NCBI RefSeq assembly: GCF_004322855.1
Contig: NZ_CP036402.1
Location: 4,496,001 to 4,560,000, forward strand
Reading direction: 5' to 3'
Source: Egibacter rhizosphaerae
Lineage (GTDB): Bacteria > Actinomycetota > Nitriliruptoria > Euzebyales > Egibacteraceae
DNA: 64,000 nucleotides
Positions 667 to 8,562 of this stretch are shown piece by piece. Position 1 is the first letter of the stretch, and every line of letters starts with the position of its first letter. A program made the translations under genes and the position numbers. The notes under the pieces were generated by a model, which saw nothing but the letters and a program-made list of their open reading frames with translations, did not search any database and was not told where the DNA came from.

Positions 667-1932
667 CTACTCCTTGCTGGCCCAGCAGGCGGGGTCGTAC
701 AGCGTCTGGTCGCGGACCATCGCGAAGGCGATCTTGTTCGCCCGGCGGGCCAGGGCGGTGGCGATGATCGCGCCGGGCTTGCCGCGCTCGCGCAGCCCGG
801 CGGCGTAGCGGCGGGCGGCGGGATCTTGGTGCCACAGGCCTACGCCGAGGTCGAGGATCGCCCGGCGCAGCGGCACCGATCCCTCCCGGCTGATGCCGCT
901 GTCACGCCGGCGACCGGCGGACTCGTACTGGGCGGGGTTCAGCCCGGCGGCGCGGTACACCTGCCGGTGCGAGGGCCAGCGTGCCGGGTCGCCGACGCCG
1001 GCGGCGTAGCCGGCCGCGCGGACCGCCCCCCAGCCCGGCCCCGACGTCAGCACGCGGTAGCGGGTGGCGGGCACGAGCGCGTCGATGCGCGCGTCGACCT
1101 CGGCGAGTTGGCCGTCCAGGCCGTCGAGCAGCGCCAGATCGGCGGCCAGGACCTGACGGGCCACCGCCGCGTCGGGCGTGGGCAGCGCGTCGCGGGCCGC
1201 GGCCACGAGGCGCTCGGCCAGCGCCACGCTCACGCGCACGTCGCGGCGCGCCGCGAACGCCCGGAAGCGGGCCACGCCGAGCCGGGCGAGCCGATCGGGG
1301 TCTGAGAACTCGGCCGCGACAAGGCGGCCGACCTTGGTGCCCAGCACGCTCGACAGACTCGCGCCCAGCCCGGGAAAGCAGCGGTCCAGCTGACCGGTCA
1401 GCTGGTTCTTGACCGCCGAGCGGGCCTGCACCCGCCGGCGGCGATGCGCCGCCCACGCGCTCAGCTCGACCAGCAGCTCATCACCGACGGCCACCTCGTA
1501 GCCGCGGCCGGCCAGCAGCAGATCCGCGATCGCGGTCAAGTCGATCGGGTCGGTCTTGGTCCGACCCGTGCCGTTGACCCGCCGCTGGGCTGACACCCAC
1601 GCCGGGTTGTGCTCCACCAGCTGCCAGTGCCCGGGCAGCACCCTCGAGGCGACCAGCGGCCGGTGGTAGTGCCCGCACGCCTCCACCCCCACCCGCACCA
1701 ACGCCGTCTCCGCCGGCAGAACCCGCTCGACCCGAGCGACGAACCCCGCCACCCCCGACCGGTCGAGAGCGAACTCGAACGGCGCGGCCAGCCGCCGACC
1801 CGAGAAGTCGACCACCATCGCCATCGCCGCCGACTTGCCCACATCCACCGGCACCGCCACCAGCCGATCCAACCCCACGCCGACCGTCCGCGCCGAAAGT
1901 TGCTGCGCTCGAATACCATGCATGTGCATCAT
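667..1932 (-). CDS. IS110-family transposase (DEDD recombinase)
   Basis: Catalyses insertion and excision of the element. The 421-residue protein has both IS110 domains. The N-terminal RuvC-like DEDD domain shows the first Asp in VPVDVGKSA, the Glu in GVEACGHY and the Asp pair in KTDPIDLTAIADLL. The C-terminal Tnp domain shows LTSGPGWGAVRAAGYAAG and a conserved serine region around RRDSGISREGS, where the nucleophilic serine of the family lies. I chose ATG 1932 because a GGGAGG Shine-Dalgarno sequence (1941-1946) is 8 nt upstream; an in-frame GTG at 1941 overlaps that site. The gene looks intact. Members of this family act with a bridge RNA encoded in the flanking non-coding DNA. Confidence 0.92.
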   Translation of the reverse strand: MMHMHGIRAQQLSARTVGVGLDRLVAVPVDVGKSAAMAMVVDFSGRRLAAPFEFALDRSGVAGFVARVERVLPAETALVRVGVEACGHYHRPLVASRVLPGHWQLVEHNPAWVSAQRRVNGTGRTKTDPIDLTAIADLLLAGRGYEVAVGDELLVELSAWAAHRRRRVQARSAVKNQLTGQLDRCFPGLGASLSSVLGTKVGRLVAAEFSDPDRLARLGVARFRAFAARRDVRVSVALAERLVAAARDALPTPDAAVARQVLAADLALLDGLDGQLAEVDARIDALVPATRYRVLTSGPGWGAVRAAGYAAGVGDPARWPSHRQVYRAAGLNPAQYESAGRRRDSGISREGSVPLRRAILDLGVGLWHQDPAARRYAAGLRERGKPGAIIATALARRANKIAFAMVRDQTLYDPACWASKE

Positions 1933-3097: not shown

Positions 3098-3594
3098 CAG
3101 CCCGCTGCTCCCCCGGGGGCGGGTTCGCTGGGCTCGTGCCCCCGGGAACCGACGCCGATGCCGCTGCGCAGCTGCGCGATGAGCGCCGGCGTCAGCACGC
3201 CGCCCAGCCGTTCGGCGACGAGGCCCATCTCGTGGGCGACGAGGCCGGCGTCCGCTTGCCGGCTCGCGACGACCGCGAGGCCCGACGCGTCACTGACCCG
3301 CGTGACGAACAGGTAGCCCTTGTCGAGCTGAACGATGATGTCGTTCAGGGTCCCGCCGTCGAAGGTGCGGGCCGCGCCGCGCCCGAGACTCAGCATGCCC
3401 GAGGCGATCGCGGAGAACTGGTCCGCGGTGTCGCGATCCAACCCCGGGGAGCGCGCGATGAGCAGGCCGTCGGCGCTCACCACGATCGCCTCGATGACTT
3501 CAGGGACGCGTTCCGCGAAGTTGGCGACGATCCAGTCCAGGTCGAGCCCGTTCCCACCCTGCGTCGCGTGGGTCCCGCCGGTCATTTCGGTCAC
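3097..3594 (-). CDS. cvnB: Conservon roadblock/LC7 protein (CvnB)
   Basis: 165-residue roadblock/LC7-domain protein; such proteins dimerise and regulate MglA-type GTPases. The start region LDLDWIVANFAERVPEVIEA, the VVVSADGLLIA-like strand and the closing YLFVTRVSDASGLAVVA strand are all typical. The GTG start at 3594 overlaps the cvnA stop (GTGA) and has a GGGAGGTGA Shine-Dalgarno sequence inside the cvnA end; ATG 3585 is a poorer alternative. The C-terminal 20 residues are a Gly/Pro-rich tail. Confidence 0.9.
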   Translation of the reverse strand: MTEMTGGTHATQGGNGLDLDWIVANFAERVPEVIEAIVVSADGLLIARSPGLDRDTADQFSAIASGMLSLGRGAARTFDGGTLNDIIVQLDKGYLFVTRVSDASGLAVVASRQADAGLVAHEMGLVAERLGGVLTPALIAQLRSGIGVGSRGHEPSEPAPGGAAG

Positions 3595-6500
3595 GGCCGG
3601 TCACCTCCCCCATCCTCCAGCTCTCCCTGTGCGCCGGCCTCGCCTTCCTCGCGGGCGCGGCGGATGCTGCTGATGTAGCGGGAGAGCACGTCGCGCGGAT
3701 CGTCTTCCTCGATGTCGGCGTCCGAGAGAAGGCCTCCCCGCCGCCCGCCCTCGGGTGCGGGTGCTGCCCGTCCTGGTTGACGCCGCGGCAGCTCACCCCC
3801 CGGTGGCGAGCTCGCCACCCCGGCGCGGGGGTCGGTCGGCTGGGTGGGGGGCATCGGTGCGGCGGCCGGTTGCGCGGGGGGCATCGGTGCGGCGGCCGGC
3901 TGCGCGGGGGGTTCGGTGGGTGGGCCGTCGTCCGCACCCGCAGCGGCGTCATGGTCGTCCCCGACGGGCTGGTCGCCACCATCGGCACTCGGTGCCCGGG
4001 GGCCGCGGTCCGGAGCAGACGTGTGCTCCGGTGCCTCCCGGGTGACGGACGGCAGCGGTGCGCCGGGGGCCTGAGCGAAGGGCGCCGGCCCTCCGATGTC
4101 CGGGTGGGCGATCGGCTCGGACACGCTGCTCTCCGGGTGAGGCGGGGCATCGGGGACGGCCGCCGACAGCGTGGGTCGGGCTGCCCCCGAAGCCGGGATC
4201 GACCAGCCGGTCCCCATCTGAGGGGCGGGCGCCGGCTTGGGGCGCCGGCCCAACACCCGCCTCCAGAACGGGCGCCGCGGCCCGGTGTCCACGGATTCCT
4301 CGGCGGTCGCGGCACGGCGGCCGGGAGCGTTGGGCATGGCCGCCTCCTCGTCGGCTGGTTCCGCCCACGGGTCGGGATCGGGTGGGGGCGTATCTGCGGC
4401 CGGCGGGGACGCGAGGTCCGTCGCACCGGCCGAGGAGTCGCTGTTCGGGTGACGGCGGGGCAGACCGCTGTGCGTCTCGGCCGCCTCCGCGTGGTTCGTG
4501 TCCTCCGGTCGGCTCGCGGTCGCGTGGGGGTGCTCAGCGTCCTCCGGTCGGCTCGCGGTCGCGTGGCGGTGCTCAGCGTCCTCCGCTCGGCTGACCGCGT
4601 CGGGCTGCCTCGCCGTGGGGTGCTGTCCAGCGGCGAACGGCTGGATCGGCGTCTCCGGCTCTCGCGGCTCGTTCACCTGGGGCTCGGGAGCGGCCGGATA
4701 CGGTGTGGGGTCCAGCGCCATACCTGGCAGCAACGCGCCGCCGCGTACCTGCATGGAGCCGAGAGGGCCGCGGTCCGGCTCCGGTGGCGCGGGCCCGGGG
4801 AGAGCCGCCGGCAGCTCCGGCACCGGCTCGTCGACCGCGAGGAGCGGGGGCGGGACGACGACGGCCGCGGTCGTGCCATCCTCTCCCCCGTCTACCTGCA
4901 CACGGATGTCGTGGCGCTGAGCGAGCAACCCCGCGACGACGAAGCCGAGGGAGCGGCCGACCCCGAAACCCGCCGTGGGCGGATCGTGCAGTCGCGCGTT
5001 AGCTCGCCGCAGCTCCTCCGGGCTCATTCCCACGCCTCGGTCGCGGATCTCGACGCGGACTCCCGCGTGCTCCGCGTCGTCGACCGCTGCGAGGTGCGCG
5101 ACGACCTCGACCTCGCTGGAGGGGTCCGAGTAGGTCGTCGCGTTCTCGACCAGCTCCGCGAGGAGGTGAGCGAGGTCGGCGGCGGCACGCCCGTGGATCT
5201 CGACCTCGGCGGTGGTGCGCACCTGTACGCGGCGGTAGTCCTCGACCTCGCCCGCGGCCGCTTGCAGCACCTCCTCCAGGGGCAGCGCCTTCGTCCATCG
5301 CCGGGGGGTCTCCGAGCCCGCCATGACGAGCAGGCTCTCCGCGTTGCGCCGCATGCGGGTCGCGAGATGGTCGATGGTGAACAGCCGCTCCAGCGCTTCG
5401 GGGTCCTCCTCGTGGCGTTCGAGGCGGTCGAGGACGCTGATCTGCCGGTCGACCAGCGACTGGTTACGGCGGGCGAGGTTGACGAACAGTTCGCTCACGC
5501 CTCGACGGGCGGTCTCGGCGAGGTCGGTGGCCGTGTCGGCGGCCACGGTGCGGACCCGTTCGAATGCCTGAGCGAGTCGGCCGATCTCGTCCTTCGCCTC
5601 GCCGCCTTCGATCGGCGTCGTTGCCTCGGGGGCGACCGGGCGGCCGGTGTGCAGCGCGGCGACGAGTTCGGGCAGCCGCCGGTCCGCGACGTCCTCCGCG
5701 GCCTCGACGAGCTGGGAGATGGGGCGCTCCATCTGTCGCGTGATGCTGATGGAGAGCAGCAACGCGATGCCCACGACCCCGAGGGCGGCGCCCGCTGCGG
5801 TCACGCCCTCCTGGGTCGCGTTCTCCGCGTGCTCCGTGGCGGCGTCGAGCGCCGACTCGGCGGTCCTCGACGTCGCGGTTCGCAGCGCGTCGGCCCGGGT
5901 CTCGAAGTCCTCGGCGGCGCCGGGGTCGACCACGTCGGGGTCGAGGCGCCCGCCGAGGAGCACGCGGTCGCGCAACGAGTCGCTGCGCGCGCCCGCGCGC
6001 GTGTCGAACAGCTCTTCCAGCTCGTTGCGCACGGACGGCCCGAGCGAGGCGAGGGCATCCTCTTCGGCGGTGCGCGCCGTGCCCGCGTGCGCCGCGTAGC
6101 CCACGAGGCTGGCGTCGTCGCCGTCGCGGGCGACGGCCTCCAGGGACAGCAGCTCGCGGGAGACGGACTCGCTGGCGACCGACAGGGCCACCAGCCCCTG
6201 CAGGTCCCGCGCGAGGCTGGCGTCCACGCGATCCAGGCCCTCCCCGGCGAGCTCGGAACCGACGAAGCGCTGGGTCGCGAGCACGCCGTCGACCATCTCC
6301 TGGTAGGCCTGCTCGCCCTCGGCCCGGCTCATGGGAGAACGCGTCACCGCCTCGCGGGTCTCCTCGAGCTCGCCAGCATTGCCCTCGAGGCGGTCCAGCA
6401 CCGCCGCATCGGTCGTGTCCGCGTCCCGGACGCGCTCGAAGGCCTCGTCGGTCTCGGTGCGGGCGTCCTCCAGGGCGACGTACGCGCCCGCGGTCACATC

Positions 6501-6719
6501 GACAGCCGCAGCCGCGCCGCTGGCGCGACGCTCCAGCTGCAGGGCGGCCAGCACGTCGTCGACGCCTTGCGCGGTTGCGGCGAGCTCCGCGGCGGTCTCG
6601 GATTGCTCGACCGCTTGCCAGCGCTCGAACACGTGCAGGCCCGCGAAGACGAGCAGGCCCACGAGGGGCGCGACGAGGAGCGCCACGAGCTTCCAGCGCA
6701 TCCGCAGGTTCTGGATCAT
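3591..6719 (-). CDS. cvnA: Conservon sensor histidine kinase (CvnA, nitrate-sensor type)
   Basis: Membrane sensor kinase at the head of the conservon, 1042 residues. TM1 is about 8-30 and TM2 about 305-327, enclosing a helical extracytoplasmic NIT-type sensor domain; a HAMP linker follows. The presumed phospho-acceptor is in FTIDHLATRMRRN (His451). The ATPase domain shows the N-box ELVENATT (Asn526), DRGVGM (560-565) and GFGVGRS (584-590). A disordered Pro/Ala/His-rich tail of about 410 residues follows, containing near-repeats of ATASRPEDAEH and of PAQPAAAPMPP, far longer than the kinase core needs. ATG 6719 was chosen because the first transmembrane helix starts just after it; GTG 6725 is an alternative. 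The frame is open further upstream into the ttuA region, but that part has no kinase features. Confidence 0.88.
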   Translation of the reverse strand: MIQNLRMRWKLVALLVAPLVGLLVFAGLHVFERWQAVEQSETAAELAATAQGVDDVLAALQLERRASGAAAAVDVTAGAYVALEDARTETDEAFERVRDADTTDAAVLDRLEGNAGELEETREAVTRSPMSRAEGEQAYQEMVDGVLATQRFVGSELAGEGLDRVDASLARDLQGLVALSVASESVSRELLSLEAVARDGDDASLVGYAAHAGTARTAEEDALASLGPSVRNELEELFDTRAGARSDSLRDRVLLGGRLDPDVVDPGAAEDFETRADALRTATSRTAESALDAATEHAENATQEGVTAAGAALGVVGIALLLSISITRQMERPISQLVEAAEDVADRRLPELVAALHTGRPVAPEATTPIEGGEAKDEIGRLAQAFERVRTVAADTATDLAETARRGVSELFVNLARRNQSLVDRQISVLDRLERHEEDPEALERLFTIDHLATRMRRNAESLLVMAGSETPRRWTKALPLEEVLQAAAGEVEDYRRVQVRTTAEVEIHGRAAADLAHLLAELVENATTYSDPSSEVEVVAHLAAVDDAEHAGVRVEIRDRGVGMSPEELRRANARLHDPPTAGFGVGRSLGFVVAGLLAQRHDIRVQVDGGEDGTTAAVVVPPPLLAVDEPVPELPAALPGPAPPEPDRGPLGSMQVRGGALLPGMALDPTPYPAAPEPQVNEPREPETPIQPFAAGQHPTARQPDAVSRAEDAEHRHATASRPEDAEHPHATASRPEDTNHAEAAETHSGLPRRHPNSDSSAGATDLASPPAADTPPPDPDPWAEPADEEAAMPNAPGRRAATAEESVDTGPRRPFWRRVLGRRPKPAPAPQMGTGWSIPASGAARPTLSAAVPDAPPHPESSVSEPIAHPDIGGPAPFAQAPGAPLPSVTREAPEHTSAPDRGPRAPSADGGDQPVGDDHDAAAGADDGPPTEPPAQPAAAPMPPAQPAAAPMPPTQPTDPRAGVASSPPGGELPRRQPGRAAPAPEGGRRGGLLSDADIEEDDPRDVLSRYISSIRRAREEGEAGAQGELEDGGGDRP

Positions 6720-6841: not shown

Positions 6842-8005
6842 TTAGCGCACGGTGCTGACCACGCTGAGGACGCGCTGCTGGGTTCGGCAGAAGGCGCAGC
6901 GCACGGAGTCGCCGTTGTGTGCCGCCTTGCCCTTGGGGGGCGCGGTCGGCATCCCGCACTCGCCGCAGGCGACCACACCGTCGTCGTTGCCCTCGTCCGC
7001 CTCGGACGCGAAGTGCTGGTCGCGGACCTTGTCGAGGAAGCCGTAGAGGAACTGCGCCTTCGTACCCGGGAAGTGTCGCTCGAGCTCGTTCAGCGCGTCT
7101 TTGTAGTGATGCACCGTGTTGCCGCCCACGAGGGGGCACTCCTCGACGATGTAGTCGAGGCCCCGGACGATGCAGTACGCGGCCATCTCGCGCTCACCGA
7201 CGCGGTAGAGCGGCTTGACCTTCTTCGCGAGCCCCCCGGAGGCCGCCAGGGCGGGCGACTGGCGGGCCATGAAGGGCGTCTGCCAGCGCAGGACGTTGCC
7301 CAGGAGCTGCGCGGCCTCGTCGTCGAGGTTGTGACCGGTGGCCATCACGTCATAGCCGTGGTCCAGCGCGACCTTGTTGAACACGTAGCGCTTGGACAGG
7401 CCACAGACGCCGCACGCCGACCGGTCCTTGACCCCGGTGGCGTCGGGGATGCTGTAGCCGAACTCCGTCGCGAGGTCGATCGCGTGGAGGGTGACGCCGC
7501 GCCGTTCGGCGAAGTCGCTCACGACCTGCTCGCTGCGCTGGGAGTAGTCCCCGATGCCGAGGCCGAGGTAGAGGCCGTCGTGGTAGCCCATGTCGAGCAG
7601 GACGTCCCAGAGCGCGAGCGAGTCCTTGCCGCCGGACACCGCGACGAGGACGCGATCGTCGTAGGAGAGCATCCCGTGTCGGTCGATCGCGTGGCGGACC
7701 TGACCCCGGATGTGGTCCACGAGGTGCTCGGCGCAGAAGGCCGCGCGGTGACGCGGGATCTCGATCACGACCGCCCTGCCGCAGACCTGGCACTGTGGCG
7801 CGCGGGGACCGGCGCCCCCGGAGATCACGGAGCGGACCTCGATCTCGGCGTCGTCGGGCAGCTCGCGGTCCCGCGTCATCAGCTCGCCGTCCCGGATCAC
7901 GAGCACGGTCTCGGGGTTGATCCCGAGCTGTGCGAGCACGTCCGCGACCGTCGCGGGGCCCGCGACCTCGTGCGTCGCGTCGGGGTTCCGGCGCCGAACG
8001 ATCAT
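6842..8005 (-). CDS. Ubiquitin-like sulfur carrier fused to TtuA/Ncs6-type tRNA thiolase
   Basis: Predicted ATP-dependent tRNA 2-thiolation enzyme, 387 residues. Residues 1-64 form a MoaD/ThiS/SAMP-like beta-grasp domain (ATVADVLAQLGINPETVLV) ending in the sulfur-carrier signature SVISGG (Gly63-Gly64). A TtuA/CTU1-type enzyme follows: zinc knuckle Cys72/Cys75 with Cys91/His94, PP-loop SGGKDS (124-129), [4Fe-4S] cysteines Cys198, Cys201 and Cys290, ATGHNLDDEA (222-231), and a C-terminal zinc knuckle Cys347/Cys350 with Cys370/Cys373. In Thermus, TtuB donates sulfur to TtuA through a free C-terminal Gly-Gly; here that Gly-Gly is internal, so cleavage or a different transfer route is needed. ATG 8005 follows a TAGCCT -10 box by 7 nt (leaderless). 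No E1-like activase lies nearby. The tRNA position modified is inferred. Confidence 0.85.
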   Translation of the reverse strand: MIVRRRNPDATHEVAGPATVADVLAQLGINPETVLVIRDGELMTRDRELPDDAEIEVRSVISGGAGPRAPQCQVCGRAVVIEIPRHRAAFCAEHLVDHIRGQVRHAIDRHGMLSYDDRVLVAVSGGKDSLALWDVLLDMGYHDGLYLGLGIGDYSQRSEQVVSDFAERRGVTLHAIDLATEFGYSIPDATGVKDRSACGVCGLSKRYVFNKVALDHGYDVMATGHNLDDEAAQLLGNVLRWQTPFMARQSPALAASGGLAKKVKPLYRVGEREMAAYCIVRGLDYIVEECPLVGGNTVHHYKDALNELERHFPGTKAQFLYGFLDKVRDQHFASEADEGNDDGVVACGECGMPTAPPKGKAAHNGDSVRCAFCRTQQRVLSVVSTVR

Positions 8006-8070: not shown

Positions 8071-8562
8071 TCAACCGACGAGCACCCATCCGATCCACAG
8101 GGCGACCATCACACTGCCCGCGGCGAGCTCGGCGAGTGCAGCGAGACCCATGCCGCGCAGCATCCCGATCACGACCCGCGTGGCCTCCTGCGCCTGGCCG
8201 GTAGCGAGCCGGGCCCGCAGCCACGCGCCGGCCAGCCCGCCGAGGGGGAGACCGAGCACGGGCAACACGATCGCGCCCACCACCGCGCCGAGGCCGGAGG
8301 CCAGCAACAGCCCGGATGGCGCCCCGGCCGCGATGCCCCCTCGGGCGGGCAGAAGGAACGAGGCCGCGAATCCGGCGAGGGCGCAGAGCGTGATCGCGGC
8401 GAACAGCCATCCGCCCGTCGTGCCGAACCCGACGGTGAGCCCGTACGCGGCGGCACCGAGCCAGACGATCAGCAGGCCCGGGATGACGGGCACCACGGTC
8501 ATCGCGAGACCGAGCGCCATCGCGATCGCGACGGCGATGGTGGCGAGCTGCTCCACGGGCAC
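8071..8562 (-). CDS. DUF456 family membrane protein
   Basis: 163-residue integral membrane protein of the DUF456 family; function unknown. It has about four to five hydrophobic helices (roughly 5-25, 27-47, 50-72, 82-108 and 135-160). Two Gly-rich helical hairpins, VVPVIPGLLIVWLGAAAYGL and VVGAIVLPVLGLPLGGLAGAWL, are the duplicated family motif. The start is GTG 8562 with GGACGGA close upstream. It is divergently transcribed from the DUF1802 gene across only 40 bp, so their promoters overlap. Confidence 0.8.
   Translation of the reverse strand: MPVEQLATIAVAIAMALGLAMTVVPVIPGLLIVWLGAAAYGLTVGFGTTGGWLFAAITLCALAGFAASFLLPARGGIAAGAPSGLLLASGLGAVVGAIVLPVLGLPLGGLAGAWLRARLATGQAQEATRVVIGMLRGMGLAALAELAAGSVMVALWIGWVLVG

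Follow-up and report, generated by a model that had tools for sequence, protein, structure and literature searches.

A sulfur carrier fused through an internal Gly-Gly to a TtuA-type tRNA thiolase in Egibacter rhizosphaerae: a probable precursor of a TtuB/TtuA pair

A single gene in the window, the 64,000-nucleotide stretch of Egibacter rhizosphaerae DNA analyzed here, encodes a TtuB-type sulfur carrier joined through an internal Gly-Gly to a complete TtuA-type tRNA 2-thiolase. We consider it probable (roughly 0.78) that this fusion is a precursor that is cut after Gly64 by a JAMM protease and then enters the ordinary TtuB/TtuA chemistry. Translation, Pfam and PDB matches, and AF2 models all agreed with the original prediction as to the position of the gene and the order of its domains, and the following features were assigned.

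6842..8005, minus strand: ttuB-ttuA fusion gene, 387 amino acids plus stop
7814..8005, minus strand: ThiS/TtuB sulfur-carrier beta-grasp domain, residues 1-64
7814..7819, minus strand: Gly63-Gly64, with the putative cleavage site after Gly64
7793..7813, minus strand: linker AGPRAPQ, residues 65-71, predicted to be disordered
6845..7792, minus strand: TtuA-type tRNA 2-thiolase domain, residues 72-387
7724..7792, minus strand: N-terminal zinc knuckle, C72, C75, C91 and H94 (Pfam TtuA_LIM_N at residues 71-95; C72, C75 and C91 invariant)
7619..7636, minus strand: PP-loop SGGKDS, residues 124-129
7136..7414, minus strand: Fe-S cysteines C198, C201 and C290 and catalytic Lys205, assigned by alignment with Thermus TtuA
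6887..6967, minus strand: C-terminal zinc knuckle, C347, C350, C370 and C373

Residues 9-64 matched the Pfam ThiS profile to its last position (30.7 bits, cut-off 22.5), and residues 11-64 matched TtuB in the PDB (E 3e-7). The ubiquitin-like fold proposed for this domain was borne out by its AF2 model (pLDDT 84), whose best Foldseek match was TtuB 5ztb_E (TM 0.90-0.91, 1.5 A). In the AF2 prediction, the beta-grasp spans residues 1-59 and a disordered end begins at about residue 61 (pLDDT <50 at residues 61-67). Residues 72-355 matched TtuA of PDB 5gha (E 4e-81) and also PDB 5mko (E 8.5e-68), and the AF2 model of the fusion minus its carrier domain superposed on TtuA structures in Foldseek; the full-length AF2 model was only moderate (mean pLDDT 64). 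The NCBIfam TtuA model scored 250 bits against 104 bits for NcsA, each under its curated cut-off; the former, NF049949, is a narrow, Pyrococcus-named equivalog with a cut-off of 450 bits. The enzyme domain has the PP-loop, the three Fe-S cysteines, the equivalent of Lys137 and two zinc knuckles expected of a TtuA, and the residues of TtuA chemistry (PP-loop, C198/C201/C290, K205 and the zinc ligands) were invariant in 38 aligned fusions. The N-terminal domain likewise combines the beta-grasp fold of a ThiS/TtuB-type carrier with its terminal Gly-Gly (SGG at residues 62-64), and this Gly-Gly is joined directly to the partner enzyme, as MoaX-type fusions require. The stretch from Gly64 to the first zinc cysteine contains no ATG, GTG or TTG codon, so that a separate start of TtuA at its usual N-terminus is impossible. 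The neighboring genes encode a DUF456 membrane protein (8071-8562, minus strand) and a NIT-HAMP sensor histidine kinase (3591-6698, minus strand), with no obvious link to thiolation.

The carrier-beside-ttuA loci of the class, of a phylum sample and of two Bacillota were each read individually. The same architecture recurred in this actinobacterial class and in a few relatives: 48 of the 88 loci were fused (one row being truncated by a contig end), and 40 were split, mostly into adjacent or overlapping ttuB and ttuA genes. Among the named loci, close fusions occurred in Nitriliruptorales and Egibacteraceae, class Nitriliruptoria. An assembly or start error was rejected, given a genome in one 4.6-Mb contig, 48 fused genomes and a linker free of start codons. 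The claim that the carrier ends at the internal Gly-Gly also held, since the ThiS match closes at residue 64 and SGG stands at the carrier end in all 88 loci, fused or split, where each of the four glycine codons is used. In 38 fusions, the linker was 4-8 residues long and variable in sequence, and of 47 fused rows, 46 had Ala or Ser as the first residue past the Gly-Gly.

On the TtuA tree, the fused/split state required no fewer than 8 changes, of which well-supported branches force at least 5; these repeated changes imply that the fused and split forms are functionally equivalent. Tails of 1-20 residues past the Gly-Gly were present on 33 of the 40 split carriers, and the remaining 7 ended exactly at it. 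In view of these tails, trimming at the Gly-Gly seems to be necessary even without a fusion. The fusion would have originated from overlapping ttuB and ttuA genes once the stop codon separating them was lost. In several split loci the carrier stop overlaps the ttuA start (e.g. CATGGGTAG), and in a close relative, G016, a TAG directly behind the Gly-Gly is soon followed by an in-frame ATG. A Met ahead of the first zinc cysteine was kept in three fused genomes, as expected if overlapping genes lost their stop codons. Genome G102 carries one fused and one split ttuB-ttuA (L089, L124), possibly through duplication or transfer, and a degenerate remnant of a fusion, apparently a pseudogene with the zinc cysteines partly lost, was seen in G005 (L065 near 6336-6506, minus strand). 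A divergent TtuA/NcsA-like group with about 33-36% identity was found in other families of the phylum sample (e.g. G284, G177 and G389), and no carrier match was found beside its members among those listed for this sample.

These comparisons bear on whether the fusion could move sulfur in cis, uncut and with no free carboxylate. The linker is so short that the end of the carrier is kept close to the enzyme it is joined to, which suits such a route. However, in the known chemistry the carrier TtuB bears a thiocarboxylate at its C-terminal end, which TtuA desulfurizes (PMC7138817); an internal glycine could not form this group, and the tails of the free carriers and the exact splits behind the Gly-Gly suit release. 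Delivery in cis is therefore barely credible.

Six free carriers are encoded elsewhere in this genome, three of which, two CysO/SAMP1-like and one MoaD-like, have a Gly-Gly followed by a tail (HR, STDDGV and GFALFASSTGWAL).

L005:1492-1773, minus strand: tailed free carrier
L007 near 1495-1779, plus strand: tailed free carrier
L009 near 1438-1770, plus strand: tailed free carrier

To expose the Gly-Gly of tailed carriers, a cell must have a protease that cleaves directly behind it, and to such a protease TtuA would be a very long tail. From these sequences, trimming past the Gly-Gly looks routine in these organisms, with the fusion as its extreme case; since residues past the Gly-Gly are already being removed from the carriers of the cell, the fusion would be tolerated.

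The other carriers might instead supply the sulfur, while the N-terminal domain of an uncut fusion regulated the enzyme from within the chain, in imitation of the TtuB-TtuA conjugates of Thermus, where lysines of TtuA are covalently modified by TtuB (PMC3980101). None of the six, however, is a close TtuB, the best tblastn match being a ThiS-like carrier (E 4e-6, 40% identity). Moreover, a regulatory domain has no need of an invariant SGG, and fused and split forms interchanged repeatedly, so that we regard this regulatory role as quite improbable. More broadly, a fusion that is never cut, whether it delivers sulfur in cis without a free C-terminus or acts permanently as a built-in conjugate, with its invariant Gly-Gly in some other role, appears improbable.

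The two kinds of enzyme that the original prediction had proposed to seek, a JAMM protease and a ThiF/MoeB-like E1, are both present in the genome. As E1, the genome has a MoeB-rhodanese protein of the MoeZ type. The one JAMM that was confidently identified scored 81 bits with Prok-JAB, had desampylase as its best NCBIfam match (Mec+/desampylase type) and retains the catalytic Glu (E31) and an intact HxHx7SxxD motif (H86-x-H88-x7-S96-x2-D99). Its gene adjoins those of CysO and CysM and is not linked to the fusion locus. This cluster resembles the mycobacterial Mec+/CysO/CysM cluster, whose Mec+ has a different known job, on CysO-cysteine (PMC3227635). A selenophosphate synthetase-like gene, recognized by eye, lies upstream of the cluster (L005:2487-3245, minus strand). 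Carrier release is well supported by the invariant SGG, the tails, the repeated fusion and splitting, and the occurrence of JAMM and E1 in the genome; of the two routes originally left side by side, release by a protease thus gained support and action in cis lost ground. Cleavage after Gly64 itself is suggested by comparative genomics.

The identity of the protease was examined among genomes at least 90% complete, where a JAMM was found in 22 of 24 with a fusion and in all 25 with a tailed carrier. Overall, 7 fused and 1 tailed genomes lacked a JAMM, for which incompleteness predicts 6.4 and 2.0, respectively. Nearly all genomes of the class have a JAMM (63 of 66), with or without ttuA, so its presence by itself proves little; its co-occurrence with the fusion lends support but does not decide the matter, and as proof it was set aside as uninformative. 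The prediction that genomes whose carriers end exactly at the Gly-Gly would lack a JAMM failed: 6 of 7 have one. Only G230, which is 100% complete and the sole JAMM-free genome at that completeness, fits, its carrier stopping exactly at the Gly-Gly, and it is one divergent genome. No confident JAMM was detected, even on a second search, in G045 (98%) or G074 (94%), both of them near-complete and fused. These two raise the possibility that another protease makes the cut after Gly64, or that JAMM shares this task with others, and the protease that cuts MoaX was left unidentified in PMC4326299. On the other hand, the 7 JAMM-less fused genomes scarcely exceed the number expected from incompleteness, and the known Gly-Gly-directed enzymes acting on such fusions are JAMMs. 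A different or additional protease is accordingly rather unlikely.

If the fusion is a precursor cut by JAMM, the gene would give rise to one TtuB-TtuA chain, and a Gly-Gly-directed protease, most likely the single confident JAMM, would cut it behind Gly64. The released carrier, now bearing a C-terminal Gly-Gly, would be adenylated and thiocarboxylated by the MoeZ-type E1, and its sulfur would pass to the freed TtuA, which would 2-thiolate tRNA, most likely at U54. U34 is a less likely target, because MnmA is present in the genome and covers U34 thiolation. Although U54 2-thiolation has been described as specific to thermophiles (PMC6313347), TtuA is widespread across this class. TrmFO was rejected as a partner, being absent from the genomes of the class that were searched, and a TrmA-family match, at 31 bits, was both weak and partial. 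It may be that TtuA acts on unmethylated U54 here.

Paper searches found no report of a TtuB-TtuA fusion, nor any paper on a QbsE/QbsD precedent. Release of a carrier from its enzyme was originally expected to be new for tRNA thiolation. In the papers that could be searched, its use in tRNA thiolation does appear to be undescribed; the processing, by contrast, is already known, since MoaD-MoaE fusions have been shown to be cleaved behind an internal Gly-Gly (PMC4326299, PMC8832034). The processing of ubiquitin-like carrier precursors would thereby be extended to tRNA thiolation. Since actinobacterial TtuB-type carriers commonly bear a C-terminal tail or are fused, the maturation of carriers in these organisms may generally include cutting by a JAMM-type protease, and the natural fused and split variants form a ready set for probing the specificity of the protease. 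In addition, TtuA, linked to thermophiles in the literature, occurs across Actinomycetota, and this class lacks TrmFO.

Several known systems resemble the proposed one. The parts consulted of two surveys (Iyer et al. 2006, PMC1779556; Makarova and Koonin 2010, PMC2948915) describe ThiS-ThiG and MoaD-MoaE among the fusions of ubiquitin-like proteins, which likewise join a carrier to a functional partner, as well as an archaeal gene neighborhood of a carrier and a PP-loop ATPase; those parts contain no fusion of a carrier with a PP-loop thiolase. MoaX of M. tuberculosis and MoaD-MoaE of Deinococcus also connect a carrier via Gly-Gly to the enzyme that it serves. MoaX is cleaved between Gly82 and Ser83 and is active only once cut (PMC4326299), and DRJAMM cleaves Deinococcus MoaD-MoaE, whose activity depends on the cut behind the second Gly (PMC8832034). 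These are molybdopterin synthases with demonstrated cleavage, whereas TtuB-TtuA is a tRNA thiolase whose cleavage is proposed. In Caldiarchaeum, JAMM-type enzymes process ubiquitin-like precursors, CsRpn11 cutting precisely after the Gly-Gly (PMC6043591). The same removal of residues past the Gly-Gly by Rpn11/JAMM from ubiquitin/SAMP precursors is envisaged here, although the Caldiarchaeum tails are short (nine residues in the ubiquitin precursor) and that of the fusion is a whole enzyme. The closest counterpart is the pair TtuB and TtuA of Thermus thermophilus (tRNA U54 2-thiolation; 5gha, 5ztb), to which both domains are homologous, with all catalytic residues kept, and with which the fusion would share the E1-dependent carrier logic. 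In Thermus, a JAMM homologue affects both TtuB conjugates and the level of thiouridine (PMC3980101). Its TtuB and TtuA are separate proteins, whereas the fusion is a single chain with an internal Gly-Gly in a class without TrmFO.
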